From Roseococcus suduntuyensis (GTDB lineage Bacteria > Pseudomonadota > Alphaproteobacteria > Acetobacterales > Acetobacteraceae): a stretch of 64,000 nucleotides of DNA. Of the stretch, positions 26,882 to 47,160 are shown one piece after another. The notes beneath the pieces were generated by a model. It was given only the letters and a program-made list of their open reading frames with translations. It did not search any database and was not told the origin of the DNA. The DNA lies in contig NZ_JACIDJ010000002.1 in NCBI RefSeq assembly GCF_014196305.1, positions 372,001-436,000 of the forward strand, in the 5' to 3' direction. The position numbers and the translations under genes are program-made. How positions within the stretch are numbered: position 1 is the stretch's first letter; each line of letters opens with the position of its first letter.

Positions 26882-26927
26882 TGTCCGATCGGCTACGGTG
26901 GAAGCACCGAAGCCGTGAATCGGCCGC
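26882..26927 (-). repeat. Dispersed palindromic repeat, copy A
   Basis: 46-base imperfect palindrome filling most of the gap between the convergent DUF1028 and GT4 genes. Read on the minus strand it has an outer CCGAT/ATCGG pair, a GGCT/AGCC pair and a CGGTG/CACCG inner stem with a 4-base loop. It aligns without gaps to 44453-44498 and closely to the tandem copies at 46988-47160. Confidence 0.75.
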
Positions 26928-26939
26928 GCCGGTAAGCCA

Positions 26940-28043
26940 TCAGCCCGCCAGAAGCCCCTCGCGCAGCGCCGCCCATCGCCGTGCGATGGCCGGCAGCAGG
27001 AAGCCTTCCAGATGCGCGCGCCCCATCTCCACGCGGCACGCGCGTTCCTCCGGATGGGTGGCGAGGTGATGGATGGCCTCGGCGATGGCCGCGGGCTCAT
27101 CCGGGTCGGCGTAGAGCGCGGCCTCGCCCGCCGCCTCCGGCAGCCCGCCCCGGCGCGAGGCGACCAGCGCCGCCCCCGCCCCCAGCGCCTCCTGTGCAAC
27201 CCGCCCAAAGGGCTCCGCCCAGCGGTTGGGCATGACGATGATGGAAGCGCGCGCCATCCGCGCGAGAGTGGCGGCGTGGTCCAGGTAGCCCAGCATCTCC
27301 ACCCCCGCCGCTTCCGCCTGGCCCCGCAAGGTGGTGACGAAGGGCGTGTCCGCCCGGCCGCCGAACCACGCATCCCCCACCATCTCCGCCCGCCATCCCG
27401 GCAGGCGCGGCAGGGCGCGGGCGCAGGCGGCCACGAAGCTGTCGGCGCCCTTCTCGGCATTGAGCCGCCCCACGAAGAGGATCAGCGCCTCGCGCGGGCC
27501 GGGGTCGGCCGGGAAGGCGGCAGGGTTATGCGGGTTGGGCATGACATGGACGCGGGGCGCCAGCGCGGCCGGCAACCCCTCCAGGAAATCCCGCCGCAGG
27601 AAATCCGAGACACAGGCCACCGCGCGCACCTGGCGCAGCAGCGCGGCACGTTCCTCCGCGCGGCGCAGCCCCCCCATGCCCGAGGCCGCGTTGTGCAGCA
27701 CCAGCACCACCGGGCAGGACAGGGCCTGCGCCAGATGCAGGGCAAGGGGGGCGCGGTTGTGCGCCTCCACCACATCGGCCGGGTGGGTGCGCAGCCGGCG
27801 CGCGGCGGCGCGGGCATGGGCGCGATTGCGGCCGAGAAAAGCCAGCGGGCCGGGCGACAGCCCCTCGAAGCGGCAGCCCTCGAAGGGCGCGTCCTGCAGG
27901 GGGCTGCCCAGCACCATGGCCTCCCAGCCCGGCGCGGGCGCGCGGGCCAGGTCGCGCACCACCAGCGCCACGCCGCCCGCGCCCCGGGGGCCGAAGCGCT
28001 CCTTGGCGGGCAGGACCATCGCGACGCGCCGAGGGGCGAACAT
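26940..28043 (-). CDS. Family 4 glycosyltransferase
   Basis: 367 residues, GT-B fold, GT4 (glycosyl transferases group 1). The C-terminal half has the expected LILFVGRLNAEKGADSFVAA strand-turn, then VMPNRWAEPFGRVAQEALGAGAALVASRRGGLPEAAGEAAL, the EX7E sugar-nucleotide-binding motif region. The N-terminus (RRVAMVLPAKERFGPRGAGGVALVVRDLAR) is typical of GT4 enzymes acting on lipopolysaccharide or exopolysaccharide. It is divergent from the O-antigen-ligase-like gene, 90 bases apart. Probably builds surface glycan; acceptor and sugar unknown. Confidence 0.87.
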   Translation of the reverse strand: MFAPRRVAMVLPAKERFGPRGAGGVALVVRDLARAPAPGWEAMVLGSPLQDAPFEGCRFEGLSPGPLAFLGRNRAHARAAARRLRTHPADVVEAHNRAPLALHLAQALSCPVVLVLHNAASGMGGLRRAEERAALLRQVRAVACVSDFLRRDFLEGLPAALAPRVHVMPNPHNPAAFPADPGPREALILFVGRLNAEKGADSFVAACARALPRLPGWRAEMVGDAWFGGRADTPFVTTLRGQAEAAGVEMLGYLDHAATLARMARASIIVMPNRWAEPFGRVAQEALGAGAALVASRRGGLPEAAGEAALYADPDEPAAIAEAIHHLATHPEERACRVEMGRAHLEGFLLPAIARRWAALREGLLAG

Positions 28044-28133
28044 GTCCCCGGCTTACACAATGGACCGGCGGGGGGCCAGCCTTGGCCCACCGGCCCCAGC
28101 CTGTATAACCGCGCCGCAATCCAGGGAGGTCGC

Positions 28134-29405
28134 GTGGAGCAGACCAGCACGACACCGCCCAACTGGCTGCGGCGTCTCGACGGGCCGGGCAGCGTGCTGG
28201 CCATGGCGGTGGGGGTGGCGATCCCCTGGGTGGTCACCGCCTCGCGCTCGGTGGCCGAGGCGGTGGTGGCGGGGCTGGCCCTGGGCTTCGTGCTTCACCT
28301 GCTGGCCACCCGCAACGCCGCCCCGCTGCGCGCCCCCTGGTTCCTGCTCGCGGCCGCCTATTGGGCCTGGCTGGTGCTGGTGACGGCGCTGGCCGGCGCC
28401 AACCCCGACCAGATGCTGGCGGCCCTGGGCTGGGGGCGGTTTCCATTGGCCACGCTCGCCATCGCGACCTGGGCGCTGGCCAGCGCGCGCGCGCAGCGCC
28501 TGGCGCTGTGGGCGCTGACGGGGGCGGTGGTCTTCGTGGCGCTGGAAGTCTGGCTGCAATTCACCTTCGGGCATGGGCTGGTTCGCTCGGGCGATGCGCT
28601 GCCTGGCTATCTCTCGGGGCCTTTCCTGCGGCCGCGGGCGGGGGGGTATCTCTCCGTGACGCTCTGGCCCGTGCTGCTGCCGGCGGTGGTGGCGCTGGCG
28701 GCCCATGGGCTCTGGGGGCGGGGCGCGGGGGTGGCGCTGGTGGCGCTGGCGGTGGGGGCGGTGATCCTGGCCTCGCAGCGCAGCCCGCTGATCATGGTGC
28801 TGTTCGGGCTCGGGCTCGCCGCGCTGGCGCTGCGGCCATTGCGGGTGCCGGCGCTGCTGGCGGTGCTGGGGGTGGCGGGGATGCTGGGGCTGGCCGCCAT
28901 CTTCGCCCCCATCACCTTCTACCGCTACGCCGTCCACCTGCCGCAATTGCTGGCGGGTTTCCCGGAGACGCATTACGGCCAGATCCTGGCCCGCGCGCTG
29001 GCCATGGTCGAGGCCCATCCCTGGCTCGGCGCCGGCGCCGAGGCCTTCCGCACCGGCTGCTACGACCCGCGCTTCCACATCGGCTGGGGCGGCGTGGGCG
29101 ATGGCGGCGGGGCCGCGATGTGCGTCACGCATGTGCACCATTTCTACCTGGAGGCGCTGGTGGATGCCGGCATTCCAGGGCTGGTGCTGTTCACCGCCTC
29201 CTGCCTCGCGCTGCTCTGGGCACTGGGGCGTGGGGCGCTGGGCGATCCGCTGCGGCTCGGCCTCTTCCTGTCGGCGCTGATCGCGCTCTGGCCGGTGGCG
29301 ACGGCCGGCGCCTATGCGGGCATAGACCAGGCGGCCTTGCGGGTCTTCCTGATGGGGCTGGGCCTGGCGCTCGCCGCCCGCCCGGTGGCCAACGGGGCGA
29401 CCTGA
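28134..29405 (+). CDS. O-antigen ligase/polymerase-like membrane protein
   Basis: 423 residues from the GTG at 28134, which has a strong AGGGAGGT site just upstream. About ten to twelve hydrophobic helices with a large periplasmic loop before the last helices. That loop has GGAAMCVTHVHHFYLEALVDAGIPGLVLF, the His-rich pattern of the WaaL/Wzy (O-antigen ligase) family, and an upstream LASQRSPLIMVLFG stretch. Such proteins attach glycan chains to lipid A core or polymerise O-units. It sits with glycosyltransferase genes on both sides. Ligase and polymerase roles cannot be separated by sequence alone. Confidence 0.8.
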   Translation: MEQTSTTPPNWLRRLDGPGSVLAMAVGVAIPWVVTASRSVAEAVVAGLALGFVLHLLATRNAAPLRAPWFLLAAAYWAWLVLVTALAGANPDQMLAALGWGRFPLATLAIATWALASARAQRLALWALTGAVVFVALEVWLQFTFGHGLVRSGDALPGYLSGPFLRPRAGGYLSVTLWPVLLPAVVALAAHGLWGRGAGVALVALAVGAVILASQRSPLIMVLFGLGLAALALRPLRVPALLAVLGVAGMLGLAAIFAPITFYRYAVHLPQLLAGFPETHYGQILARALAMVEAHPWLGAGAEAFRTGCYDPRFHIGWGGVGDGGGAAMCVTHVHHFYLEALVDAGIPGLVLFTASCLALLWALGRGALGDPLRLGLFLSALIALWPVATAGAYAGIDQAALRVFLMGLGLALAARPVANGAT

Positions 29406-29407
29406 GC

Positions 29408-30157
29408 GTGCAGACCGTCATCTGCATGAAGTGGGGCACGCTCTATGGCCCCGAATACGCCAACCGCCTGCACGCCATGGTGCGGCGGAACACCAGGCGC
29501 CCGCTGCGCTTCGTCTGCTTCACCGAGGATGCCACGGGCCTTCACCCGGGCATCAAGGTGCAGCCCCTTCCCCCCATCCGCATCCCCGCCCACCACCAGC
29601 GCTTTCCCTGGCGCAAGATGTCGCTCTGGGGCGAGACCCTGGGCGACCTGATCGGCCAGGTGCTGTTCCTCGACCTCGATCTGGTTGTGACCGGCGATGT
29701 GGATGGCTTCTTCGACCACGCGCCCGAACAGGATTTCGTGGTGATCCGCAACTGGACCTCGCGCGCCCCCGTGTCTGGCGAAAGGGCCATCGGCAACACC
29801 TCCTGCTTCCGGCTGCGTGTGGGATCCAACGCGCATCTGCTGGCCGCGGTGGAGGCGGATTTCGACGGCATCTTCGCCGCCCACCGCATCGAGCAGGCCT
29901 TCATCTCGCGCCACGTCCAAAGCATCGCCTTCTGGCCCGAGGGCTGGTGCGTCAGCTTCAAGCATTCCCTGCTGCCGCCCTGGCCCGCGCGGCTGTGGCG
30001 GCCGGCGGCGCTGGCGCCGGGCACGCGCCTCGTGGCCTTCACCGGCAAGCCCGATGTGCATGACGTGCTGGACGGGCGCTGGCCCGCGCCGTGGTACAAG
30101 AAATTCTACAAGTCGCTGCGCCGGCCCGACTGGGTGGCCGAACACTGGCGAGAATAG
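29408..30157 (+). CDS. Putative glycosyltransferase with DxD motif
   Basis: 249 residues from the GTG at 29408, 2 bases after the ligase-like gene; an ATG 18 bases later is the alternative. The start QTVICMKWGTLYGPEYANRLH and the D89-L90-D91 motif in VLFLDLDLVVTG indicate a GT-A-type glycosyltransferase of the small family often annotated as hypothetical. Later KHSLLPPWP and PDVHDVLDGRWP segments are probably acceptor or ligand contacts. No signal peptide, so cytoplasmic. It is coupled to the O-antigen-ligase-like gene, and so likely part of surface-glycan assembly. Confidence 0.75.
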   Translation: MQTVICMKWGTLYGPEYANRLHAMVRRNTRRPLRFVCFTEDATGLHPGIKVQPLPPIRIPAHHQRFPWRKMSLWGETLGDLIGQVLFLDLDLVVTGDVDGFFDHAPEQDFVVIRNWTSRAPVSGERAIGNTSCFRLRVGSNAHLLAAVEADFDGIFAAHRIEQAFISRHVQSIAFWPEGWCVSFKHSLLPPWPARLWRPAALAPGTRLVAFTGKPDVHDVLDGRWPAPWYKKFYKSLRRPDWVAEHWRE

Positions 30158-30192
30158 CGCCTGATCCACCGTGCTGAAGCGACCGCCCAGCC

Positions 30193-30663
30193 TCAGAACC
30201 AGCGGCGCACCTTGGCCTTGTAGTCGAGGTAGTCCTGGCCGAAGCGGCGCTCCAGATAGGCCTCCTCGCGCCGGACCACGAGGAAATCCAGCGCCAGGAA
30301 GATGCCCCCCACGGCCAGCCACCCCCACAGCGTGCCCCAGACCAGCGCCATGCCCGCCGCCACCAGCAGGAAGCCCGAATAGATCGGGTTGCGGCCCAGC
30401 CGGAAGGGACCGCGCGCGACGAACTGGCTGTCGGGCTTGTCCGGTCGCGGGTCATTGCCGGCGCGGACCAGCACCAGCAGCGCCCAGCCCATCAGCAGGA
30501 AGGCCAGCAGCATCACCGGCAGGCCGAGTTCGGGCGCGGGCGGGCCGAGCATGACGGGCGCCAGCCAGTTCAGCGCCCAGGCCAGCAGCAGCCCCGCCAG
30601 CACCATCAGCGGCGGCGGCACCTTCACGCCGGGGCCGTGCATGTCCTGCTCAGGCGGGGACAT
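30193..30663 (-). CDS. Isoprenylcysteine carboxyl methyltransferase-like membrane protein
   Basis: 156 residues from the ATG at 30663 (a GTG 9 bases upstream and an ATG at 30642 are alternatives). Four hydrophobic helices, then the ICMT/PEMT-type motif GPFRLGRNPIYSGFLLVAAG and the C-terminal REEAYLERRFGQDYLDYKAKVRRW that binds SAM in this family. Bacterial members methylate unknown membrane-located substrates. The start overlaps the end of ygfZ by about 14 bases, so the two form an operon, although a shared function is not apparent. Confidence 0.85.
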   Translation of the reverse strand: MSPPEQDMHGPGVKVPPPLMVLAGLLLAWALNWLAPVMLGPPAPELGLPVMLLAFLLMGWALLVLVRAGNDPRPDKPDSQFVARGPFRLGRNPIYSGFLLVAAGMALVWGTLWGWLAVGGIFLALDFLVVRREEAYLERRFGQDYLDYKAKVRRWF

Positions 30664-31480
30664 CGGCCGCACCCTCGGGCAGCGTCATCCAGGAGGGCGG
30701 TTCGGGGATCAGCCGGGCCGCGCCGCAATCGAGCGCGCCGTCCCGCAGCGCCTCCATCCGCAGCAGCGCGAGGCCCCGCCCCTCACGGCCGGAGCGCATC
30801 TCGCCCACCTCCGTGCCGCCGCGCGTGACGGGGGTGCCGCGCGCCGGCAGGGGCCCCTCCACCCGCACCGGCACCAGGCGGCGCTTCACGAGGCCCCGAT
30901 ACTTGGTCCGGGCCGTCAGCTCCTGGCCCATGTAGCAGCCCTTGGTCCAGGAGACGCCATGCAGCTCGTCGAAGCCCGCCTCCAGCAGCACCGATTTTTC
31001 CGCATCCATGTCGCGGCTGCCGTCGGGAAGCCCAAGGCCCAGGCGGTGCACATCGTAATCCTGGGCCGTGGCGTCGCTGGACAAGGGTGCGGGCGAGAGC
31101 ACCCGCCAGCCCGCCTCCGGATGGCGCGGGTCACGCCGCACCAACCCCGTGGCCTCCGGCGCCGCGCCCCAGGCGGCATGGACATGCCACTCCTCCGAGG
31201 CATCCCGCAGCGCCACCTTGCTGCGCAGCCGGAAGCGCGAGAGGCGCTGCACCAGCTCCGGCACCTGGGCGCGGTCGGCGTCCAGCAGCAATGCCTCGCC
31301 TTCCGCGACCAGCAGGAAATCCGCCAGCCACTTGCCCTGGGGCGACAGCAGCGCGGCCCAGACGGCCGCCTGCCCGTCGGCGGCGGCCACGTCGTTGGAG
31401 ATCAGCCCTTGCAGGAAGGCGACGCGGTCCGCGCCCGTCACCTCCACAACGCCCCGTTCGGGGAGGAATGCCATGGTCAT
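30650..31480 (-). CDS. ygfZ: YgfZ/GcvT folate-binding Fe-S assembly protein
   Basis: 276 residues from the ATG at 31480, which gives the normal family opening (FLPERGVVEVTGADRVAFLQGLISND); a longer frame to 31525 would leave only 14 bases to the divergent gene. The hallmark KGCYMGQELTARTKYRG has the conserved cysteine C182. YgfZ binds tetrahydrofolate and helps build or repair some Fe-S clusters such as those of MiaB. It shares an operon with the ICMT-like gene and is divergent from the GT9 gene. Confidence 0.92.
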   Translation of the reverse strand: MTMAFLPERGVVEVTGADRVAFLQGLISNDVAAADGQAAVWAALLSPQGKWLADFLLVAEGEALLLDADRAQVPELVQRLSRFRLRSKVALRDASEEWHVHAAWGAAPEATGLVRRDPRHPEAGWRVLSPAPLSSDATAQDYDVHRLGLGLPDGSRDMDAEKSVLLEAGFDELHGVSWTKGCYMGQELTARTKYRGLVKRRLVPVRVEGPLPARGTPVTRGGTEVGEMRSGREGRGLALLRMEALRDGALDCGAARLIPEPPSWMTLPEGAADVPA

Positions 31481-31539
31481 GAACGGGATATCGGGGGCCG
31501 AGCCTCCCGCCTCAACCCCATGCATGATACAGCGCGCGG

Positions 31540-32454
31540 GTGGAAATCCTGTTCATCACTTCGAGCCGCATCGGGGATGCCGTGCTCTCGACCGGCCTCG
31601 CCGAACATCTGCGGCTGGCCCACCCCGAAGCGCGCTTCACCATCGCCTGCGGCCCCGCCGCGGCCGGGGTGTTTGAGCGCATGCCAGGGCGCGTGGCCAC
31701 GCTGGTGCTGCGCAAGCGGCGCTTCGCCGCGCATTGGCTGGGCCTCTGGGCGACATGCGTGACGCGCCGCTGGGATCTGGTGGTGGACCTGCGCGGCTCG
31801 GCCTTCGCCTGGACGGTGCCGGCGCGAAAGCGCGCGGTGAAGCGAGGCGGAAGGCGGCCGGGCCACCGCATCCTGCACATCGCGGAAGTGCTGGGCGTCA
31901 CCCCCGCGCCCCGCCCCGTGGCGTGGTGGGCGCCCGAGGATTTGGCGCGCGTCGAACCCCTGCTACCCCAGGAACCCTTCCTGGTGCTCGGCCCCACGGC
32001 CACCTGGGCGCCCAAGATGTGGCCCACCGAGCGCTTCGTGGCCTTGGCCCAGAAACTGACGGCGCCCGGCGGCCCCCTGCCCGGCGCACCCATCCTGATC
32101 CTGGGCGGGCCGGGCGCGGAGGAGGCCCGCATGGCGGCCCCCCTGCTGGCCGCCCTGCCCGAGGCCCTGCCCCTGATCGGCACGCTCTCCATCCCGGAGG
32201 TGACGGCGCTGCTCTCGCGCGCCGCGCTCTATGTGGGCAATGATTCGGGGCTGATGCACCTGGCGGCGGCGGCGGGCGCGCCCACCCTCGGGCTGTTCGG
32301 CCCCTCCATGGTGAGCGAATACGCGCCGATCGGCCCACGCGCGCGCCCGGTGGTGGCACCGGGCCGGGCCGGGCATGCGCCCATGCGGGGCTTGAGCGTC
32401 TCGGCCGCCCTGGCGGGTGCGCGCGAATTGCTGGCGCCCGAGCCGGTGGCCTGA
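31540..32454 (+). CDS. Family 9 glycosyltransferase (heptosyltransferase-like)
   Basis: 304 residues from a GTG at 31540. The start EILFITSSRIGDAVLSTGLAEHL is the GT9 signature, and the second half has VLGPTATWAPKMWPTERFVALA and LYVGNDSGLMHLAAAAGAPTLGLFGPS, the ADP-heptose-binding region of WaaC/WaaF/WaaQ. It is shorter than E. coli WaaC (~320). Likely transfers a heptose or related sugar to lipopolysaccharide core in the cytoplasm. First of a three-gene run with the GT4 and the asparagine-synthetase-like gene (2-base gap, then 4-base overlap). Confidence 0.88.
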   Translation: MEILFITSSRIGDAVLSTGLAEHLRLAHPEARFTIACGPAAAGVFERMPGRVATLVLRKRRFAAHWLGLWATCVTRRWDLVVDLRGSAFAWTVPARKRAVKRGGRRPGHRILHIAEVLGVTPAPRPVAWWAPEDLARVEPLLPQEPFLVLGPTATWAPKMWPTERFVALAQKLTAPGGPLPGAPILILGGPGAEEARMAAPLLAALPEALPLIGTLSIPEVTALLSRAALYVGNDSGLMHLAAAAGAPTLGLFGPSMVSEYAPIGPRARPVVAPGRAGHAPMRGLSVSAALAGARELLAPEPVA

Positions 32455-32456
32455 CC

Positions 32457-33566
32457 ATGTTCGTCGTCGTCACCCAGAATTTCGCGCCGGATATCGGGGG
32501 CATTGCCATCGTGATGCACGCGCTGGCCGGCGCGCTGGCGGCGGAGGGGCCCGTCGAGGTCTTCGCCCACCGCATCCGCGGCGGCGGGCCTGAGCTTGAG
32601 GGCCACCCCTACACCGCCCTGCACCGCTTCGGCGGCCCCAACCCGCTGCGCGGCTGGCGCAAGGGCTGGGCGCTGCGCGGGCCGCTGGCCAACCCCACCC
32701 TGCGCGGCGTGCTCTGCGACAGTTGGAAGAGCGCCGAGATCCTGCCCCCCACCACCGCCCCCGTGCTGGTGCCGGCCATGGGCATGGAATTCCCCCCGAA
32801 CCCATCCCCGCGCCGTGTGCGCCGCATCCGGGCCGCCCTGGCAAAGGCGAGCGTGGTGCTGCCCATCTCGCGCCACACGGCGGCGGCGGTGGCGCCCTAC
32901 CTCGCCCCCGGCGCGCGGATGGAGATCATCCCGCCCCCCATCGCCCCCCAGCCGGATGCCACCCCCGAGGCGCGGGCCACCCTGCGCGCGCGGGTGGGCC
33001 ACGGGCCGCTGCTGGCCACGCTGTGCCGCCTCGAAAAGCGCAAGGGCGTGGACCGGGTGATCGCGGCCCTGCCCGCGCTCTTGCCGCGCCACCCCGGCCT
33101 CGCCTTCGCCATCGCCGGCGAGGGCGAGGACCGCGCCCGGCTGGAAGCCCTGGCCGCCGAGCTGCGCGTCACCCCTCACGTCCATTTCCTGGGCCGGGTG
33201 GATGACGCGCAAAAGGCCGCGCTGCTGGCCGAGTGCGCCTGCTTCGCCATGCCGGTGCGGCGCGAGGGCGCCTCGGTGGAGGGCTTCGGCATCGTCTATC
33301 TTGAGGCCGCCTGGCATGGCCGCCCCTCGCTCGCCGGCCGCGAGGGCGGCGCGGGCGATGCTGTGGAGGAGGGGGTCACCGGCCTGCTCTGCGACGGCCT
33401 GGACCAGGCCAGCGTCACCACGGGCCTCGCCGCCCTGCTGGACGACCCCGCCCGCGCCGATGCCATGGGGGCGGCCGCCGCGCGCCGCCTGCACGAGGGC
33501 TTTCTGCTCGACGCCATCGCCCGCCGCTTCCTGGACCTGATGCCCCCGCGCGGAGCCGTGGATTGA
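32457..33566 (+). CDS. Family 4 glycosyltransferase
   Basis: 369 residues. N-terminal TQNFAPDIGGIAIVMHALAGAL is the donor/acceptor-gate region of GT4 proteins. The C-terminal half has LATLCRLEKRKGVDRVIAALPAL, HVHFLGRVDDAQKAALLAECACFAMP and EGFGIVYLEAAWHGRPSLAGREGG with the conserved glutamates. It starts 2 bases after the GT9 gene and overlaps the following TTG-started gene by 4 bases. Probably a sugar transfer step in the same surface glycan; specificity cannot be read from the sequence. Confidence 0.88.
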   Translation: MFVVVTQNFAPDIGGIAIVMHALAGALAAEGPVEVFAHRIRGGGPELEGHPYTALHRFGGPNPLRGWRKGWALRGPLANPTLRGVLCDSWKSAEILPPTTAPVLVPAMGMEFPPNPSPRRVRRIRAALAKASVVLPISRHTAAAVAPYLAPGARMEIIPPPIAPQPDATPEARATLRARVGHGPLLATLCRLEKRKGVDRVIAALPALLPRHPGLAFAIAGEGEDRARLEALAAELRVTPHVHFLGRVDDAQKAALLAECACFAMPVRREGASVEGFGIVYLEAAWHGRPSLAGREGGAGDAVEEGVTGLLCDGLDQASVTTGLAALLDDPARADAMGAAAARRLHEGFLLDAIARRFLDLMPPRGAVD

Positions 33567-35221: not shown

Positions 35222-35239
35222 ATTCAGGGAGCTGGCGCC

Positions 35240-35815
35240 TCAGCCCGCCAGCAGCCGCGCCGAATAGCCGCCGATGAACAGGCCCAGGATCAGGTCCGTG
35301 ATGACGAAGAGCGCCGCCGTGCCGCCGGTCACGTTCAGCGCCACCCGCACCACGAACCATTCGAGCCAGACGGCATAGCCCAGCGCCGCCAGCCCCAGCA
35401 TGTTCGCGAGCCACCCCGGCAGGCCCAGCGCGGCCAACACGGCCATCGCTACCAGCAGGATGAACTGGACGACATTGGTCCAGTTCCAGGCGGCCATGAA
35501 TTGCGGCCATTGCTCGGCCCGGCCCGCCTGTGCCGCCAACGGCAGCGAGACCACGGCGAAGGCCGTCCAGGAGAGCGTGTAGCCGATCAGCTCCACCACC
35601 AGCGCGGTGGGGATGCCCACCTCCGGCGTCCCGCGCGTGCCGTAGGAGAGCAGGCGCATCACGAGGAACAGCGGCAGGCAGATCAGCGCCGCGCGGAAAG
35701 AGGCGCGGGCGGTGGCGAGGTCATTGGGCAGCAGCGCCAGCCCCTCGGGCCGGCCGCGCGCGAAGAGCAATGCGGCCGCGAGGCCCGCGGCGCTGCTGGG
35801 GTTCAAGCCAGGCAC
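35240..35815 (-). CDS. Hypothetical integral membrane protein
   Basis: 191 residues, GTG start overlapping the dapE stop by 13 bases. About five hydrophobic helices (around residues 40-55, 68-95, 110-130, 135-155, 160-190), Trp-rich middle (WNWTNVVQFILL). The pattern of paired helices with PEVGIPTALVVELIGYTLSWTAF resembles YIP1-like small membrane proteins, but I do not recognise it firmly. It ends the seven-gene minus-strand run that starts with the osmoprotectant transporter. Function unknown. Confidence 0.65.
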   Translation of the reverse strand: MPGLNPSSAAGLAAALLFARGRPEGLALLPNDLATARASFRAALICLPLFLVMRLLSYGTRGTPEVGIPTALVVELIGYTLSWTAFAVVSLPLAAQAGRAEQWPQFMAAWNWTNVVQFILLVAMAVLAALGLPGWLANMLGLAALGYAVWLEWFVVRVALNVTGGTAALFVITDLILGLFIGGYSARLLAG

Positions 35816-39432: not shown

Positions 39433-40520
39433 GCCCGTCGTTCCATGGCGCCCAGCCCCGCATCCACCGCCAGGGCCAGCGCCACCACCGGCAGCGCGCC
39501 CAGCAGGATGAGGTCGGTCGCGAACTGCGACATGCCCTCGAAGACCAGGGCACCTAGGCCGCCCGCGCCGACAAGCCCCCCCAGCGTGACCAACCCCACC
39601 GCCTGCACCGCCGCCACCCGCAGCCCGCCCAGGAAGTGCGGCAGGCCGAGCGGCAGCCGCACCCATGCCAGCATCCGCCCCCGCCCCATGCCGAGCGCGG
39701 TCGCGGCCTGGATCACGGCAGGGTCGGTCGCGGTCAGCCCGGTGCGGAGCGCGCGCAGCAGCGGCAGGGAGAGATACAACGCGATGCCGATCAAGGCCGG
39801 GGTGGCCCCGATGGCGCCGAAGCCCGCCGCACGCAGCCCCGGAAAGGCGCCCAGCAGCGCCGCCAGCAAAGGCACCAGCAGGCCAAACAGCGCGATGGCC
39901 GGCACCACCTGCACGCCGCCCAGCAGCGCGTCGAAGAAGGCGGCCAGCCGGGCGGAGGCGAGCCCCGCCAGCGCCAGCAGGCTGGCCAGCGCCGATGCCA
40001 GCCCGAGGGCGGACAGGGACAGCCAGAGATGCGTGGCCAGCGCCGCCCCCACCGCCTCGCGCCGCGCGCGGAACTCGACGGCGAGCGAGAACCCGTCCAA
40101 CACCCCGCCCCAGGCCAGCACGCCCAGGCCCAGCACCAGCAGCGCCGCCGCCAGCAGGCGGCGTTGTCCCGGCCAGAACACCAGCGCCGCCAGGGCCGCA
40201 AGCGCCACCCAGGCGGCGCTGCCCAGCGTGGCGCGGGCCGCGGGCGCGGCACCGTCCAGCAGCGCGGCGGCGCCAGCACCCAACCCCGCCAACAGCACCA
40301 GCAAGGCGCCAGCGGCGGCCAGCGGCGCCAGGCGCCAAGGCGCGGCACCCAGCGCCAGCAAGGGCACGGCCAGCCAGGCCCAGCCCGGCAATACATCGTG
40401 CGCCGACAGCGGCGCCCCGGGCATCAGCCGGTTGGGGGCAAGGGACAGCGCATCCGGCCCCAGGATCAGCGCCGCCAGCGCCAGCCCGGCCGGCAGGAGG
40501 CGCGGCCAGGTGGGCGCCAC
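39429..40520 (-). CDS. Osmoprotectant ABC transporter permease (long, YehY-like)
   Basis: 363 residues, GTG start one base after the binding-protein stop. The N-terminal ~150 residues add several extra hydrophobic helices, as in YehY, before the standard permease core. The core EAA loop is QAATALGMGRGRMLAWVRLPLGLPHFLGGLRVA and the following GGLVGAGGLGALVFEGMSQFATDLILLGA is diagnostic of the glycine betaine/choline class. Pairs with the shorter permease at 37775-38527. Very Ala/Leu-rich composition makes exact helix limits uncertain. Confidence 0.9.
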   Translation of the reverse strand: MAPTWPRLLPAGLALAALILGPDALSLAPNRLMPGAPLSAHDVLPGWAWLAVPLLALGAAPWRLAPLAAAGALLVLLAGLGAGAAALLDGAAPAARATLGSAAWVALAALAALVFWPGQRRLLAAALLVLGLGVLAWGGVLDGFSLAVEFRARREAVGAALATHLWLSLSALGLASALASLLALAGLASARLAAFFDALLGGVQVVPAIALFGLLVPLLAALLGAFPGLRAAGFGAIGATPALIGIALYLSLPLLRALRTGLTATDPAVIQAATALGMGRGRMLAWVRLPLGLPHFLGGLRVAAVQAVGLVTLGGLVGAGGLGALVFEGMSQFATDLILLGALPVVALALAVDAGLGAMERRA

Positions 40521-40521
40521 C

Positions 40522-41442
40522 TCAGCGCGCCGCGGCCTCCATATGGGCGCGGGCCACGTCGCGCGCCGGGCGGCCCTCCACCGCGATCTGCGCGTTCAGC
40601 CGCTGCAGCGTGGTGAGGTCCAGCGTGGCGAAGGCGGCATCCAGCGGCGCCCGCATGGCGGGGAAGCGGTCCAGCACGGCCTGGCGCACCACGGGCGCGG
40701 CCTCATAGACGATCTGCGCGCCTTTGGTGTCGGTCATCACCACGAGGTTCAGCGCCGAGATGGCGCCGTCCGTCCCATAGACCATGGCGGCGTTCACGCC
40801 CGAGATCTGCTGCGCGGCCGAGCGCATGGTCACCGCCGTGTCGCCGCCGGGCAGCACCACGATGCGGTCGCGCGGGAAGGTGAAGCCATAGGTGCGCTCG
40901 AAGCTCGGCAGGGCCGCGGCGCTTTCCACGAACTCGGCCGAAGCCGCGAGGCGCAGCACGCCGCGCCCTGCGGCGGCGGCCAGGTCCTCCATGGAGCGCA
41001 GGTTCTCGCGCCGGGCCACGTCCTGCCGCACCGCGATGGCCCAGGTGTTGTTGGCGGGCGCCCGGCCCAGCCAGGCCAGGCCCTGCGGCGCGTCCAGCTC
41101 GCGCGCCAGGGCGTGCGCCTGGTCGGCGTTCTTCCAGGCCGGGTCCTCGGCGCGGTTGTGGAAGAAGGCGGCGTTGCCGGTGTATTCGGGGTAGAGGTCA
41201 ATCTCGCCCGCCAGCAGGGCAGCGCGGACGATGCGCGTGGGGCCCAGCGAAAGCCGCGCCTCGGCCGGCACGCCGGCCCGTTCCAGCACCGCCAGGACCA
41301 GGTTGCCCAGCAGCGCGCCCTCGGTGTCGATCTTGGAGGAGACCACCACGCGGTCGCGCGTCTGGGCGCGGACAGTCGTAGCGCCGGTCAGAATCGGTAA
41401 CGAAGCGCACCAAATTTGCCTACGATTAAACGTCATTGGCAT
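40522..41442 (-). CDS. Osmoprotectant ABC transporter substrate-binding protein (OsmF/YehZ-like)
   Basis: 306 residues from the ATG at 41442 (ATG at 41436 also possible). The leader region (RRQIWCASLPILTGATTVRAQ) is an atypical signal peptide. The mature part has VVSSKIDTEGALLGNLVLAVLERAG, then IDLYPEYTGNAAFFHN, a hallmark of the OpuAC/OsmF family that binds quaternary amines. No aromatic cage could be verified by eye. First gene of the transporter-dapDE run. Its first ~70 bases are less G+C-rich than the rest and border the A/T-rich island, so its 5' end may have been reshaped by the insertion. Confidence 0.9.
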   Translation of the reverse strand: MPMTFNRRQIWCASLPILTGATTVRAQTRDRVVVSSKIDTEGALLGNLVLAVLERAGVPAEARLSLGPTRIVRAALLAGEIDLYPEYTGNAAFFHNRAEDPAWKNADQAHALARELDAPQGLAWLGRAPANNTWAIAVRQDVARRENLRSMEDLAAAAGRGVLRLAASAEFVESAAALPSFERTYGFTFPRDRIVVLPGGDTAVTMRSAAQQISGVNAAMVYGTDGAISALNLVVMTDTKGAQIVYEAAPVVRQAVLDRFPAMRAPLDAAFATLDLTTLQRLNAQIAVEGRPARDVARAHMEAAAR

Positions 41443-41532
41443 CCCGTCCCCGGTTGAGCGTGCAAGGCCAATACGCACTCACGGTGTAATTCCGTATGGC
41501 CACTCGAATTCAAAAATGGTAAATTATGCGAC
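41443..41532. promoter_or_regulatory. Divergent gap holding the promoters of the osmoprotectant-dap run and the island gene
   Basis: 90 bases between the binding-protein start (minus) and the island reading frame (plus), increasingly A/T-rich toward the right. The promoter of the seven-gene run must lie here or further into the island. No clear -35/-10 pair or Shine-Dalgarno for the island gene is evident. Confidence 0.4.
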
Positions 41533-42399
41533 ATGAGCGATTCACAACGCGCCTCAGCGAGACGAGATTTTGCGGAATTGGGAAAAATTCTCGATTCTAT
41601 CAAACATTCATTTGATAGAGAATTCGAAAATAGATCACCCCCAAGATCAGCATTTACTTTCTTAATGAAAATAGAAGAAATTCGATATAAGTATAGAGCA
41701 TTATTTTCTGGAAGTGCCGCAATTCCAATGCGCCTTATTTTTATTAAAAAACTTAGAGATGATTTTCAGAGCGCCAGCCGCCATATTTTAGATAAGTATA
41801 AAGATCTTACTATAATTCCGCTTGAGAAAGTACGCCCTCACACATCTCTGCCAACACCATCAATATGGGCGCGAACTCCGCGCGATGGGATGTCACTGGA
41901 AGTCGCAATAAGAAATTTCGATTTTATCGTTTCTCGACATATTACAGATATTAATGATAGCGACCTAAAATCTCTAGCTATAGAATTGAATCGAAACGCA
42001 CCGCCGCAAATTCTCGCTCCAGTTCAATTCGAAATATTCGATGAAAAACTTCGAATTGCTCGAACTCCTAATGCAAGCCCCCTCTTATCTACCGAAAATA
42101 TTGCTGCACTTCGGCAGCACATTATATCAAAACATTCTGAACTTCTTATGTTGCTATTAAATTCGAATATGGATCGAAAAATTGTATCTCAGTTCGAAGT
42201 ATTGGGAAACGCTATAAATAAAGAAAACAACATAATTATTGTTGGTCTAGAAAACATTACTACTATGTCTTATCTTGCCGCCTGCGATACGGACGAACTT
42301 TCAAGTATCCAGACGGCAACCATTTTTAATCATCTTGAACAGATATCGATGTATATATCTCAGTTCTCTGAATGGTCGCAATTTCAGAGTAACTATTAG
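41533..42399 (+). CDS. Unknown A/T-rich gene, first part (ends at in-frame amber)
   Basis: 288 residues, mostly helical and charged at the start (SARRDFAELGKILDSIKHSFDREFEN), no recognised domain, no signal peptide. Base composition is far below the neighbours (one 60-base line, 42181-42240, is 27% G+C in a genome near 70%), and codons such as ATA, TTA and AGA are used freely, so it is foreign. The stop is a single TAG at 42397; the same frame then stays open without another stop to 42802, so this is probably the N-terminal part of one 423-codon gene. No ribosome-binding site is visible before the ATG. Confidence 0.6.
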   Translation: MSDSQRASARRDFAELGKILDSIKHSFDREFENRSPPRSAFTFLMKIEEIRYKYRALFSGSAAIPMRLIFIKKLRDDFQSASRHILDKYKDLTIIPLEKVRPHTSLPTPSIWARTPRDGMSLEVAIRNFDFIVSRHITDINDSDLKSLAIELNRNAPPQILAPVQFEIFDEKLRIARTPNASPLLSTENIAALRQHIISKHSELLMLLLNSNMDRKIVSQFEVLGNAINKENNIIIVGLENITTMSYLAACDTDELSSIQTATIFNHLEQISMYISQFSEWSQFQSNY

Positions 42400-42456
42400 T
42401 CTTCTCCATCTTCCGATACAAATCCTGAATCCATTAAGCAGATTATTTCCAATATC

Positions 42457-42804
42457 TTGGAAAAAAATGATATTCTCGAAAATGATGCTCAGGTATTTTT
42501 CCGCCGCATAAAGCAAGCGCTTGGATCACAAACAAAAGCCGCTACATATGCAGCTCTTACTAGTCTCCAAAATTTATGTTTAGCAATTCTCCGATACGGG
42601 ATAAATTTTGTTGCTGATGTTCACTCTGATTTACGACCAAAATTAGTAAAATCTGTATCGCGGGCCGCATATGCCGGCATTCTCGGTGTCGGTTTATATC
42701 TACTACAAGCTGGCAATCTTATATCGTTACCGCCCGCTAGCTTGAATTGGGCAAACCAAGTGGGTGAAGTTATACAGCGAGAGTTAAGGGCATTAGGACA
42801 ATAA
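42457..42804 (+). CDS. Unknown A/T-rich gene, second part (same frame after the amber)
   Basis: 115 residues if begun at the TTG at 42457, but there is no ATG or ribosome-binding site, and the open frame actually continues in phase from the TAG at 42397-42399. Best read as the C-terminal remainder of the upstream gene. It contains a helical stretch (FFRRIKQALGSQTKAATYAAL) and one hydrophobic segment (AAYAGILGVGLYLLQAG) that could span the membrane. Ends one base before the convergent HNH nuclease gene. Either a nonsense-mutated pseudogene, or a gene read through the amber codon, or a sequencing error. Confidence 0.4.
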   Translation: MEKNDILENDAQVFFRRIKQALGSQTKAATYAALTSLQNLCLAILRYGINFVADVHSDLRPKLVKSVSRAAYAGILGVGLYLLQAGNLISLPPASLNWANQVGEVIQRELRALGQ

Positions 42805-43506
42805 TTAGCCCTGTTCCAGTTCGCTGTCCCAATAGAGATAGTCCCGCCAGCTCTCGTGCAAATGGTTGGGCGGGAAGGCGCGGCCGTTTTCCTGCAATTC
42901 CCAGCTCGTCGGCTGGCGCGGGGTGGCGCGGGGCAGCATCTGGCATTCGCGCGGCAGCTTGTCGGCCTTCCGCAGATTGCACGGGCCGCAGGCGGCGACC
43001 ACGTTTTCCCAATTGGTGCGGCCGCCGCGGCTGCGCGGAATCACATGGTCGAAGGTCAGGTTTTGCGCCGGCTGGCCATCGCCGCAATACTGGCATTCGA
43101 AGCGGTCGCGCAGGAACACGTTGAACCGGGTGAAGGCCGGGCGTCGCGCGGCGGGGATGTATTCCCGCAACGCGATCACCGAGGGCAGGCGCAGGGAGAA
43201 GGAAGGGGAACGCACCTCCGTCTCGTATTCGCTCAGCACCGAGACCCGGTCCAGCACCACGGCCTTCACCGCGTCCTGCCAGGCCCAGACCGAGAGCGGG
43301 AAATAGGATAGCGGGCGGAAATCCGCGTTCAGCACCAAGGCGGGGAAGCCGCCGGGGCCGGTGATCTGCGGAATGAGGCTGCCGTCGGGCAAGCGAAGCT
43401 CCTCCACGTCTCGCGTGGCGCGGAAGCCGGACCCGGAGGGAGCGGGCGCGCTCCCGATTCGGTTCTGCGCCACAACTGCGATGCAGGCATGACAGGGATG
43501 CCGCAC
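42805..43506 (-). CDS. HNH endonuclease
   Basis: 233 residues as the longest frame; the real start may be ~35 residues later, since family members begin near ALVLNADFRPLSYFPLSVWAWQDAV. The HNH/zinc part is clear: CQYCGDG, then LTFDHVIPRSRGGRTNWENVVAACGPCNLRK, with two CxxC pairs and the catalytic His in FDHV. The family is widespread in alphaproteobacteria as an ordinary chromosomal gene rather than a phage gene. Composition matches the host, not the adjoining A/T-rich island. Its cellular target is not known. Confidence 0.85.
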   Translation of the reverse strand: MRHPCHACIAVVAQNRIGSAPAPSGSGFRATRDVEELRLPDGSLIPQITGPGGFPALVLNADFRPLSYFPLSVWAWQDAVKAVVLDRVSVLSEYETEVRSPSFSLRLPSVIALREYIPAARRPAFTRFNVFLRDRFECQYCGDGQPAQNLTFDHVIPRSRGGRTNWENVVAACGPCNLRKADKLPRECQMLPRATPRQPTSWELQENGRAFPPNHLHESWRDYLYWDSELEQG

Positions 43507-43615
43507 TGCCGCAAGCCAAGCGCCGGACGGGGCTTGGCGGTTTCACCGGCCCGTCACATCCGCGCGCGACCAAGCCCTTGCCGGCACGGGGAAAGGGCGC
43601 GAGAGGATGGTCGGC

Positions 43616-44437
43616 ATGATCCAGGGCGCCGTCACCCGCTTCGCCCCCTCGCCCACCGGGCTGCTGCATCTGGGCCATGCCCATGCGGCGCTCTTCGCCG
43701 CGCGGGCGGGGGGCCGCTTCCTGCTGCGCCTCGAGGATATCGACGCCACCCGCTGCCGCCCGGAGTTCACCGAGGCCATCTTCGAGGACCTGTCCTGGCT
43801 CGGCCTGCGCTGGGAGGAACCGGTGCGGGTGCAATCGGCGCATTTCGCGGAATACCGGGCGGTGCTGCACCGTCTCCAGTCCCGCCGCCTGCTCTACCCC
43901 TGCTTCTGCACCAGGGCCGACATCGCCGCCGCCGTCTCCGCCCAGCACGGGCCGGCCCATATCTATCCGGGCACCTGCCGCGGGCTGGACCCGGGCCTGG
44001 CCGCCGTCCGCGTGGCCGCCGGCGAGGCCCATGCGCTGCGCCTCGACATGGCGCGCGCCTTGGCCGAAACCGGGCCACTGACCTTCCAGGACCTGATCCA
44101 CGGCCCCCGCCGCTGCGACCCCACGGCCCAGGGCGATGTGGTGCTGGCGCGCAAGGACATCCCGGCCAGCTACCATCTCTGCGTGACGCATGACGACGCC
44201 CTGCAAGGTGTCACCCTCGTCACCCGCGGCGAGGATCTGCTGGAGGCCACCGACATCCACCGCCTGCTCCAGGCCCTGATGGGCTGGCCGGAACCCTCCT
44301 ACGCCCATCACACCCTGATCCGCGACGGCGAAGGGAGGCGACTGGCGAAACGCGACAAGGCCCCCACCCTGCGCGCCCTGCGCGAGGCCGGGCGCAGCCC
44401 CGCCGAGGTACGCGCCATGGCCGGCTTCCCGGATTGA
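43616..44437 (+). CDS. gluQ: Glutamyl-Q tRNA(Asp) synthetase
   Basis: 273 residues from the ATG at 43616, which has GAGAGG 9 bases upstream; the ATG at 43607 would touch that site. A truncated glutamyl-tRNA synthetase lacking the anticodon domain; it glutamylates queuosine in tRNA-Asp. Signature TRFAPSPTGLLHLGHAHAALFAARA (HIGH-like HLGH), the KMSKS equivalent RRLAKRDKAPTL, and the zinc site CFC...YPGTC typical of GluQRS. Divergent from the HNH gene, 100 bases apart. Confidence 0.94.
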   Translation: MIQGAVTRFAPSPTGLLHLGHAHAALFAARAGGRFLLRLEDIDATRCRPEFTEAIFEDLSWLGLRWEEPVRVQSAHFAEYRAVLHRLQSRRLLYPCFCTRADIAAAVSAQHGPAHIYPGTCRGLDPGLAAVRVAAGEAHALRLDMARALAETGPLTFQDLIHGPRRCDPTAQGDVVLARKDIPASYHLCVTHDDALQGVTLVTRGEDLLEATDIHRLLQALMGWPEPSYAHHTLIRDGEGRRLAKRDKAPTLRALREAGRSPAEVRAMAGFPD

Positions 44438-44452
44438 GGCTGACATCTTTTC

Positions 44453-44498
44453 GCGGCTGATTCACCGCTTCGGCGATTACGCCTTCGCGGATCAGACG
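44453..44498 (+). repeat. Dispersed palindromic repeat, copy B
   Basis: 46-base imperfect palindrome between gluQ and the EamA gene. Outer pair CTGAT/ATCAG, middle CGC/GCG, inner GGCG/CGCC around ATTA. Compared with copy A at 26882-26927 the sequence differs at about a quarter of positions, but outer and inner arms have changed together so that pairing is kept. Ends 14 bases before the GTG start of the next gene. Confidence 0.65.
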
Positions 44499-44512
44499 CT
44501 AGCCTCGCTTTC

Positions 44513-45403
44513 GTGACCCAACGCAGCACCGGCCTCCTTCTCCTGTTCGTGACGGCGCTGTGCTGGGGGTCCAACTGGCCGCTGCTCAAGCTGCTGCTGG
44601 CCGAGATGCCGCCGCTCGGCGCCCGCGCCTATGCGGGCTTCATCGCGGCGGCGCTGGTGGGGGTCATCGCGCTGGCGCGGGGTGAAAGCCTCGCCGTCCC
44701 GCGCGAGCAGTGGGGCCGCGTCTGGCTCTTCGCCCTGTTGAACGTCACGGCCTGGATGGGCTTCGCCTCGATGGCGCTGCTCTGGCTCGCCGCCGGCGAG
44801 GCCGCCATCATCGCCTACACCATGCCCGTCTGGGCCGCGCTGCTGGCCTGGCTGATCCTGGGCGAGCCGCTGGGCTGGGCCAAGGTCGCGGCGCTGGCGC
44901 TGGGCACGCTCGGCGTGGCACTGCTCTTCACCCCGCAGGAGGTGGCCATCGGGCCGGACAAGGTGCTGGGCGGGGTCATGCTTCTGGCGGCGGCGCTCCT
45001 GTTCGCGCTGGGCGCGGTCATCGCCAAGCGCAAGCCGCTGGCCTTGCCGCCGCTCTCGGCCGTGACCTGGCAGCTCGGGCTGGGCAGCCTGCCGCTGTTC
45101 GTCATCTCCTCGCTGTGGGAGGAGGTGGATTGGGCCGCGCTTTCCCCCGCCGGCTGGGGGTATTTCCTCTGGATGGCGGTGGGGCCGCTCGGCATCGCCT
45201 ACATGACCTGGTTCGGCGCGCTCCGGCGCCTGCCGGCCTCGACCGCGGCACTCGGCACGCTGCTGACGCCCGTGGTGGGCACGCTCGGCGCCGCCTGGCT
45301 GGTGGGCGAGGCGCTGGGCTGGCGGCAATGGGGGGCGCTGGCCTGCATCGTGCTGGGCGTGGCATTGGCGGTGCGCCCGCCGCCCGCCCGCCCGCGTCAC
45401 TGA
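44513..45403 (+). CDS. EamA/DMT family transporter
   Basis: 296 residues, ten hydrophobic helices in two EamA repeats. The first repeat has TALCWGSNWPLLKLLLAEMPPLGARAYAGF and IIAYTMPVWAALLAWLILGEPLG, and the second ends TAALGTLLTPVVGTLGAAWLVGEALGWRQW, all typical of RhaT/YdcZ-type drug/metabolite exporters. GTG start at 44513. The substrate cannot be deduced; such proteins export amino acids, nucleosides or other metabolites. Followed by the RlmI-like gene 15 bases later. Confidence 0.9.
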   Translation: MTQRSTGLLLLFVTALCWGSNWPLLKLLLAEMPPLGARAYAGFIAAALVGVIALARGESLAVPREQWGRVWLFALLNVTAWMGFASMALLWLAAGEAAIIAYTMPVWAALLAWLILGEPLGWAKVAALALGTLGVALLFTPQEVAIGPDKVLGGVMLLAAALLFALGAVIAKRKPLALPPLSAVTWQLGLGSLPLFVISSLWEEVDWAALSPAGWGYFLWMAVGPLGIAYMTWFGALRRLPASTAALGTLLTPVVGTLGAAWLVGEALGWRQWGALACIVLGVALAVRPPPARPRH

Positions 45404-45418
45404 TTGGAATTGTAACTT

Positions 45419-46600
45419 ATGGACCTTCCCCTGCTCCGCCTGCTGCCCGGCCGTGACCGGCGCGTGAAAGGGGGCCACCCCTGGGCCTATTCCAACGAGG
45501 TGGCCATGTCGCCCGAGGCCCGCGCCCTGCCCCCCGGCGGCGCGGTGCGGCTGGAGGGCGATGACGGGGTGAAGCACGGCATCTGGCAGTTCAACCCGCA
45601 CAGCCTGATCGCCGCCCGCGTGCTGGACCGCGAGCCCTCCGCGCGCCCGGACGCCGCCTGGTTCCGGGCGCGGATCGCCGAGGCCCTTTCCCTGCGCGAA
45701 CGCCTGGGCGTGGCCCGCCATTGCCGCCTGGTGCATGCCGAGGCCGATGGGTTGCCCGGCCTGATCCTGGACCGCCACGGCGATGCGGTGGCGCTGCAGG
45801 CCAACACCGCCGGCATGGAGGCCGCGACCCCGCTGGTGCTGGAGGCGCTGCACGCCCTTCTCGCCCCCCGCACGGTGGTGGCGCGCAATGACAGCCCGGT
45901 GCGGACGCTGGAAGGCCTGGCCCTCGAATCCCGTCTTCTGCACGGCGCCGACGCCACGGCGCGCATCGAGGAAGGCGGCCTCGCCTTCGAAATGGACCTG
46001 CTTTCCGGCCAGAAGACCGGCTGGTTCCACGACCAGCGCGAGAACCGCGCCCGCGTGGCCGCCCTGGCTTCGGGGGCCATCATGCTCGACGCCTTCTGCC
46101 ACACGGGCGGCTTCGGGCTGGTGGCGGCACAGGCGGGTGCGGCGCATGTGACGCTGCTGGACCGCTCGGAGCCCGCGCTGGCACTCGCGCAGCGCACCGC
46201 CGCCGCGCATGGGCTGGGCGAGCGCGTCACCGCCCAGCGCGGGGAGGCGCTGGAGGCGCTGGAACGCATGGTCGGCCTTGGCCGGCGCTTCGACGTGGTG
46301 GTGGCCGACCCGCCCGCCTTCGCCAAGGCGCGCAAGGACATCCCAGCGGCACTCCGGGCCTATCTGCGCCTCGCGCGGCTTTGCGCGCAGCTGGTGGCGC
46401 CGGGGGGCGTGCTGTTCATCGCCTCCTGCTCCCACCATGTGGCGCCGCCCGACTTCGCCGATGCCGTGGCGCAAGGGGTGTGGCGGGCGCGGCGCGAGGC
46501 GCGGCTGCTGTTCCAGGGCGGCGCGGGGCCGGACCACCCGGTGCATCCCCTGCTGCCCGAGAGCGCCTACCTCAAGGCGCTGCTGTTCCAGCTGCGATGA
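45419..46600 (+). CDS. RlmI-like 23S rRNA cytosine methyltransferase
   Basis: 393 residues. N-terminal PUA-type domain (LLPGRDRRVKGGHPWAYSNEV), then EEGLAF/FEMDLLSGQKTGWFHDQRENR, and a SAM-binding Rossmann fold with LDAFCHTGGFGLVAAQAG near 222 and the catalytic region VVVADPPAFAKARKD near 296. The pattern matches the class I SAM-dependent rRNA methyltransferase family including RlmI and RlmK; the exact target base is not certain. The DUF3293 gene starts 4 bases before its end. Confidence 0.9.
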   Translation: MDLPLLRLLPGRDRRVKGGHPWAYSNEVAMSPEARALPPGGAVRLEGDDGVKHGIWQFNPHSLIAARVLDREPSARPDAAWFRARIAEALSLRERLGVARHCRLVHAEADGLPGLILDRHGDAVALQANTAGMEAATPLVLEALHALLAPRTVVARNDSPVRTLEGLALESRLLHGADATARIEEGGLAFEMDLLSGQKTGWFHDQRENRARVAALASGAIMLDAFCHTGGFGLVAAQAGAAHVTLLDRSEPALALAQRTAAAHGLGERVTAQRGEALEALERMVGLGRRFDVVVADPPAFAKARKDIPAALRAYLRLARLCAQLVAPGGVLFIASCSHHVAPPDFADAVAQGVWRARREARLLFQGGAGPDHPVHPLLPESAYLKALLFQLR

Positions 46601-46974
46601 CGCGCGAAGGGGCCTGGCGCGCCTCGACCTATCGCGCGGGACCGGTGGTGGCCTGGGCCGGGCGGCGTTCGCCCTCGGCCGATGCCTGGCTGGCGGCCCA
46701 TGGCGCGCGGGCGGGTGCCATCATCACCGCCTGGAACCCGATGTGCCGCTGGCATCCGCGCGGCTGGAACGACCGCGCCCAGGAGCGCCTGCGCGCGGCC
46801 ACGCGGCGCTGGGCGCGCGCGGAAGGGTTCAGTGGCACCAAACGCTGGCAGGAACACAATCTGCTGCTGGCCGCGAACCCGCGCGCGGTGACGGTGCTGG
46901 CCCGACGGTTTCGGCAGGCGGCGATCCTGGTGCTGCGAAAGGGTCAGCCGGCGCGGCTGCGCGTCTGCGCCTGA
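46597..46974 (+). CDS. DUF3293 protein
   Basis: 125 residues, starting in a 4-base overlap with the methyltransferase. The middle part AIITAWNPMCRWHPRGWNDRAQERL and the downstream EHNLLLAANPRAVTVLARRFRQAAILVL are the DUF3293 pattern (small soluble alpha/beta protein). Arg- and Ala-rich, no signal peptide. Function unknown; co-translation with an rRNA methyltransferase suggests, weakly, an RNA-related role. The tandem repeat array begins 13 bases after its stop. Confidence 0.85.
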   Translation: MTREGAWRASTYRAGPVVAWAGRRSPSADAWLAAHGARAGAIITAWNPMCRWHPRGWNDRAQERLRAATRRWARAEGFSGTKRWQEHNLLLAANPRAVTVLARRFRQAAILVLRKGQPARLRVCA

Positions 46975-46987
46975 GGGCGTTGCCGGG

Positions 46988-47160
46988 CGGCCGATTCACG
47001 CCCTCGGTGCCTTCCCACCGAGGACGATCGGACGCCATGCCTCAGCGGCCGATTCACGCCCTCGGTGCCTTCCCACCGAGGACGATCGGACGCCATGCCT
47101 CAGCGGCCGATTCACGCCCTCGGTGCTTCCCACCGAGGACGATCGGACGCCAAGCCTCAG
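46988..47160 (+). repeat. Three-copy tandem array of the palindromic repeat
   Basis: Three head-to-tail units start at 46988, 47046 and 47104 with a 58-base period. Units 1 and 2 are identical; unit 3 lacks one C in the hairpin loop and differs at one base near its end. Each unit holds a stem CCTCGGTG/CACCGAGG flanked by CCGAT and ATCGG. It lies between the convergent DUF3293 gene and a small membrane-protein gene, and the last unit runs into that gene's stop codon. The units match copies A and B elsewhere. Confidence 0.9.

Follow-up and report, generated by a model that had tools for sequence, protein, structure and literature searches.

Five units of one hairpin element in the window

The window, a 64-kb stretch of the Roseococcus suduntuyensis genome (contig NZ_JACIDJ010000002.1, positions 372,001 to 436,000), contains five units of one hairpin element at three intergenic sites, here called A, B and C. 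The family to which they belong is real, abundant, structure-conserved and mobile in effect, and is probably a non-autonomous palindrome of the repetitive extragenic palindromic (REP) kind, tolerated at gene ends and moved by an enzyme outside the transposase families tested here. An earlier note on this DNA had described the same palindrome at these three sites, and its coordinates were confirmed. Three observations go beyond it: the wobble pairs sit almost entirely on one strand, genes receive stop codons from the element, and its presence differs between sister species.

Each unit is a hairpin of ~50 nt. Its sense strand has the layout TAG-CG-TCYGATC-stem-loop-stem-GTGA-ATCRG-CCGCT, or, read base by base, AG-C-G-T-C-Y-G-A-T-C-[stem]-loop-[stem]-G-TGA-A-T-C-R-G-C-C-G-C-[T]. 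The outer stem (AGNG.CYGAT/ATCRG.CNCT) is interrupted in its middle by a mismatch, mostly T.C, at a position that forms a standard pair in none of the 104 distinct units of the window's own genome and in 14 of 93 other units. The 3′ arm carries a 3-nt TGA bulge, and the inner stem has ~11 pairs closed by a loop of ~4 nt. Where the core is 39 nt long, the inner stem can be paired in its middle or open there into an internal loop, which is often GGA/GGA; columns 15–17/30–32 are unpaired in 30 to 33 of 77 aligned sequences. Units A and B align without gaps, and their paired arms change together as the earlier note had it, from CCGAT/ATCGG and GGTG/CACC in A to CTGAT/ATCAG and GGCG/CGCC in B. Array C (46987–47160) comprises three units, the third one base shorter. 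A covariance model, which had A and B but none of the C units among its building sequences, found all five with E-values of 3e-17 to 8e-16, and the window units folded as RNA (seven folds) at −22 to −36 kcal/mol, with z-scores of −2.1 to −5.0. The units, as placed by the model, are:

26880..26928, plus strand: unit A, running in the sense direction and opening with the AG of the upstream gene's TAG stop (26879–26881)
44452..44500, minus strand: unit B, sense on the minus strand, between the gluQRS and EamA transporter genes
47102..47151, minus strand: array C, unit 1, counted from the array head
47044..47094, minus strand: array C, unit 2
46986..47036, minus strand: array C, unit 3

The flanking genes converge at sites A and C and run in the same direction at site B. 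The neighbouring genes are:

26219..26881, plus strand: DUF1028 gene upstream of the head of unit A, with stop TAG
26940..28043, minus strand: glycosyltransferase gene, convergent, behind unit A
43607..44437, plus strand: tRNA-synt_1c-domain gene before unit B, glutamyl-Q tRNA(Asp) synthetase-like, which we take to be gluQRS from its size and domain
44513..45403, plus strand: EamA transporter gene after unit B
46381..46974, plus strand: DUF3293-domain gene on the tail side of array C, a frame that our codon-based gene caller passed over
47157..47498, minus strand: gene of 113 amino acids without a Pfam family, convergent, on the head side of array C

Elsewhere in the window, a long G+C-rich stretch with imperfect short tandem repeats lies at 63160–63460.

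Copy number, covariation and the folding strand

The pattern YGATTCA-N14-44-GATCRGA matched 141 times (61 + 80) in the 4.14-Mb own genome and its backward control not once, which excludes a chance origin of the family. The covariance model, for which 77 distinct units were used, including 43 from the own genome, placed the element at 150 sites in this genome at E up to 5.4e-6; as these were every candidate scored, the copy number is at least 150. The earlier note had proposed a dispersed REP-like family and staked the proposal on further copies being found, and they are plentiful. Recognition needs the whole hairpin, since the left arm alone, with three mismatches allowed, was hardly above chance (35 occurrences in the window against 26.3 expected; 4 of 100 shuffles reached 35). 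At one own locus (L059) a tandem array of near-identical units (4005–4204) is followed by a run of N in the assembly, so copy number in arrays may be underestimated.

An ungapped alignment of 77 sequences by 49 columns had 90.6% of its cells paired, with changes on both sides in 14 of the 20 pairs, so the lack of covariation that would have spoken against a selected fold did not appear. The covariation score was 0.312 against 0.103 for shuffled alignments (none of 500 reached 0.312), and structures slid along the alignment scored 0.015 to 0.121. Conservation at C6, G8, A9, T10, C11 and GTGAATC.G is no evidence, because the search pattern fixed these positions. The pairs outside its constraint are Y.R, the next inner pairs and the outer pairs AGNG/CNCT. 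At Y.R the pattern permitted all four combinations, and all 104 distinct own units and 90 of 93 others retained the pair, with shuffle means of 78.7 and 68.6, respectively. The outermost pair of the outer stem is weakly maintained, forming in 59 of 104 distinct own units.

A known structured RNA was rejected: Rfam 15 gave no match in the window at gathering scores and none on any unit in eight loci checked at E up to 1. An integron attC site was dropped, as its core motif is absent, and CRISPR was dropped for want of spacers. Separately, a cobalamin riboswitch (L004:64–268, minus strand, E 7e-26) lies ~1.2 kb from a pair of units in the own genome.

Wobble pairs indicate which strand folds. 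The count took in the 87 of 114 own units with 80% or more of their cells paired. In the inner stems of these units, 30 clusters showed wobble-type cells of the T.G kind and 2 of the C.A kind; G.T and A.C did not occur. A T.G pair on the sense strand is a C.A mismatch on the other strand, so it is the pairing of the sense strand that is kept. The sense RNA was the more stable in 76 of 104 own units, the antisense in 15, and 13 were equal, a difference that stems partly from fixed features. In the sister species Roseococcus thiosulfatophilus, T.G was seen 4 times and C.A never. Between tandem genes the head faces the upstream stop in 12 clusters and the tail in 13, a balance that fits a fold not maintained for a function in mRNA. 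In the 13 tandem clusters whose upstream gene reads the other strand, T.G occurred in 4 and C.A in none; in the remaining 12 the counts were 4 and 1. The folding of one strand therefore seems important for the element itself, regardless of the direction of the upstream gene, and the one-strand wobble together with the 12:13 orientation would tie the constraint to the element's own life and not to a host message.

Gene ends, stop codons and turnover between sister species

Placement was scored in own loci, where a simple codon-based gene caller supplied the gene contexts. Among 64 clusters (114 units), 36 lay between convergent genes, 25 between tandem and 1 between divergent genes, 2 at locus ends were unclassified and none was inside a gene; the earlier note had reported a convergent setting for two of its three sites. 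Because these loci had been picked around units, we took an unbiased sample of 0.8 Mb, with 29 clusters, from the nearest named relative found, R. thiosulfatophilus RB-3 (G200; gluQRS 92% identical, 75 pattern matches). There a cluster occupied 16 of 108 convergent gene pairs, 12 of 519 tandem pairs and 1 of 110 divergent pairs, none being inside a gene (convergent versus the rest, Fisher p 2e-7).

Heads of the element (its CYGATC end) faced 48 gene ends, 38 of them at a distance of no more than 15 nt, and 25 of these 38 had a TAG stop, compared with 54 of 342 gene ends away from units. In 19 the TAG stood at an identical distance, the AG of the stop being the first AG of the element. Own clusters run head to tail, with no inverted close pair among the 64 examined. 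Read by eye, four clusters between tandem genes (L034:6557–6605, L052 near 4007, L053 near 4072 and L066:16341–16448) have the antisense of the head, GATCGGAGG or GATCGGAGAG, ~4–8 nt before a predicted start codon, where it could act as a Shine–Dalgarno sequence for the next gene; three of the four also hold a complementary CCTCC inside the hairpin. A five-unit array in the own genome (L070:11418–11661) adjoins a gene that reads, by eye, like a phage terminase large subunit.

Stable hairpins, strongly enriched between convergent genes and a few nucleotides behind stops, would also suit a selected bidirectional terminator or a stabiliser of mRNA 3′ ends, in which the hairpin would end both convergent transcripts or block 3′ exonucleases. 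A terminator-like hairpin with a T-rich tail (44422–44442, plus strand) directly precedes unit B, and this site is partly formed by the inserted spacer. A terminator role, one of those floated in the earlier note, found no support, however: none of the five window units was flagged as terminator-like, no T-run stands behind them, orthologous convergent pairs in R. thiosulfatophilus lack a unit, and convergent pairs without one are the large majority there. Tandem orientation is also balanced, although the wobbles sit on one strand. We therefore regard this explanation as unlikely.

Turnover was assessed in both directions. By both flanks, 20 of the 61 own clusters with flanks mapped to the stretches of R. 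thiosulfatophilus compared; one of them (L063) was excluded because its flanks were only 70–71% identical. Called by eye, 6 of the 19 usable sites were occupied in the sister and 13 were without a full unit, one of the empty sites keeping a 9-nt remnant, GTGAATCAG, and another having an element-like relic adjacent. When the 29 sister clusters were compared with the own loci in hand, 10 mapped, of which 6 were shared and 4 were present in the sister only. Window sites B and C are both empty in R. thiosulfatophilus. We examined the neighbours of gluQRS in 43 of 80 loci; 12 contained both genes, 10 of them adjoining, and the gluQRS–EamA junction was free of units in all 10, so unit B was most likely gained in the lineage of R. 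suduntuyensis. Five own heads sit at the fixed distance on a TAG and have an empty counterpart site in the sister; at four of these sites the sister gene stops with TGA.

Such turnover also bears on a chromosomal-protein binding site, where gyrase, a nucleoid protein or an SMC loader might bind between convergent genes and absorb supercoils. Convergent placement would fit, and gyrase binds Escherichia coli REPs according to excerpts of PMC3733652 and PMC6006769, but 13 of 19 sites are not common to the sister species, only 15% of the convergent pairs in its sample are occupied, and the inner stem is largely free apart from its pairing. By analogy with those REPs a binding role can be imagined, and we consider it very improbable.

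A mobile element tolerated at gene ends accounts best for these results. The folded sense strand, as single-stranded DNA or RNA, would insert by means of an enzyme outside the tested transposase families; new copies would persist where they are harmless, right behind stop codons and chiefly between convergent genes; and local multiplication of units would build the head-to-tail arrays. We infer that the fold is kept for mobility and not for a host function. More tentatively, the element may multiply as one folded strand (RNA or single-stranded DNA) through a host or unrecognised enzyme, with no transposase of its own, its join to the stop changing TGA to TAG and leaving the gene intact.

Several points weigh against this reading. 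Mobility is deduced from presence and absence, because neither an insertion enzyme nor a clean target-site duplication was found: by eye, the 13 empty/filled pairs showed no consistent duplication. Import of gene ends by recombination could mimic mobility, and at one of the five testable stop codons the sister has TAG as well. Tandem and divergent placement did not differ significantly in the sister sample (p 0.48). The wobble asymmetry is weaker in other genera (11 versus 4 clusters, not significant), and copies are related by descent, so that wobble counts are not independent events. Orientation showed no bias with GC skew and hence no sign of lagging-strand insertion, which we rejected. The searches for a mover were confined to the Y1, IS630, IS110, DDE_Tnp_1 and rve families, and two element-rich relatives do contain members: G175 has one DDE_3 and seven DDE_Tnp_1 genes, and G205 has five rve genes.

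The search for a mover and comparison with known repeat families

No resident mover was found among these families. The own genome has no match to Y1_Tnp (PF01797, the family of REP-associated tyrosine transposases, RAYTs), IS630 DDE_3, IS110 Transposase_20 or DDE_Tnp_1, and three to rve, of which two are interrupted by a stop and the third scores below the cut-off; all five families were rejected on these grounds, and the linked RAYT (TnpA-REP) that the earlier note suggested looking for is missing. The sister genome has no Y1_Tnp, DDE_3, Transposase_20 or rve and one short DDE_Tnp_1 match. A gene flanked by inverted clusters of units (L039) was rejected as a carrier, as by eye it is Hsp70-like and no transposase. 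Array C had no match among the plasmids searched, and another array (L043) none among the plasmids and phages searched.

Across 200 genomes of the host family (Acetobacteraceae), pattern matches mostly numbered 0–5, chance included; the window's genus (four genomes, 23 to 141 matches), g16 (10 to 55) and a few others stood out. In the class, 58 of 337 genomes had any match, many without a hairpin. Genomes G493 (106 matches) and G299 (10, at least two without a hairpin) share the outer architecture and have different inner stems. In these two and in G090, a member of the host family, copies take the form of two inverted hairpins of ~120 nt with CTAG or close variants at both outer ends, a form seen by eye in 18 of 30 G493 loci. 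At three G090 loci (L229, L231 and L232) palindromic stretches with CTAGAGC/GCTCTAG-like ends abut units, making a mosaic of several hairpin families. Seventeen phage-like contigs matched a pattern and three carry own-type units: L268, where one unit (near 3940) follows a capsid gene (2932–3930) by ~10 nt and another lies further on; L269, with a unit near 1988, ~0.7 kb from a head–tail connector gene; and L263.

The units might instead be RAYT-mobilised REPs or miniature inverted-repeat transposable elements (MITEs) derived from an insertion sequence; the copies would then be recent remains, and their transposase would have been lost or be encoded on a replicon that the assembly lacks. An extragenic, bulged, REP-like hairpin with TAG at its foot, the inverted CTAG-ended forms elsewhere and DDE_3 genes in 11 of 16 genomes searched, including the element-rich G175, G015, G106, G051, G088, G120, G493 and G219, would all accord with this. 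Y1_Tnp, however, was present in 1 of 26 genomes (G090, where the Y1 locus, as retrieved, holds no unit) and absent from the other 25, which include every element-rich genome except G090; IS630 and IS110 are absent from both the own and the sister genomes; and the transposase-rich relatives G206 and G207 have 1 and 2 pattern matches. MITEs moved by a DDE transposase pair terminal inverted repeats with a target-site duplication, and no consistent duplication was seen at the 13 pairs. Such an origin is accordingly doubtful, and a mover outside the tested families remains the reading we prefer.

Our searches of the open-licence literature found no paper on this repeat in Acetobacteraceae. The two-hairpin forms of G493, G299 and G090, with TAGAGC-like or TAGTGG-like ends, may resemble Rhizobium intergenic mosaic elements (RIMEs) or CTAG-ended palindromic MITEs, although own-genome units differ in being single hairpins. 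Excerpts of three papers served for comparison: PMC2573895 mentions RIMEs, PMC3733652 (Di Nocera et al. 2013) deals with GTAG and CGTC REPs, and PMC6006769 defines RAYT REPs by GTAG or GTGG at the hairpin foot.

With GTAG REPs, as these excerpts present them, the element shares a bulged hairpin, a similar size, an extragenic position and a TAG at the foot that supplies stops, as GTAG ends often do (PMC3733652); it also shares inverted doublets, seen in other genomes of the class (G493, G299 and G090). In GTAG REPs the GTAG or GTGG lies unpaired 0–2 nt 5′ of the hairpin, whereas the present head reads TAG-CGTC, the base before TAG varies, the AG can pair in the outer stem and there is no constant GTAG/GTGG guide. 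The own genome lacks a Y1 transposase, and its units are single or in head-to-tail arrays, not the inverted doublets of BIMEs or REPINs.

CGTC REPs, in the same excerpts of PMC3733652, have no transposase and are, like the present element, palindromic, extragenic and near gene ends, between convergent or tandem genes. Both lack a dedicated transposase (here among the families searched), and most own-genome units have CGTC at one end: the three positions before the pattern-fixed C are C in 99, G in 96 and T in 91 of 104 distinct own units. The terminal CGTC motif of CGTC REPs is unpaired; in the present element the CG is paired in the outer stem, and the first base varies in other genera. CGTC REPs have a stem of 8–9 bp starting with AT pairs and a 3-nt tail, mostly CCA, whereas the present element has a longer, 20-pair structure with a 3-nt bulge and a mismatch, and a GCCGC tail without CCA. 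Head–head dimers predominate among CGTC REPs and head–tail ones are negligible, in contrast to the head-to-tail arrays at the own loci examined, and CGTC repeats are reported missing from Acetobacteraceae, the very host group of this family.

The family is thus REP-like and is filed in neither class, because it fails the RAYT tests and most of the structural tests for CGTC repeats. According to PMC3733652, the means by which RAYT-less palindromes of the REP kind spread has been an open question since the 2013 description of the CGTC class. This family of the RAYT-less kind offers clear differences between sister species, searched transposases that are absent or broken and a sequence sign of the strand that folds, and its two sister species make the question of spread testable in the laboratory; the stop-codon join would give repeats a route into tightly packed genomes without damage to genes. 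Set beside known families, its REP-like form is ordinary, and what is unusual is the combination of recent turnover, the lack of the tested transposases, the stop-codon join and a fold signal on one strand.

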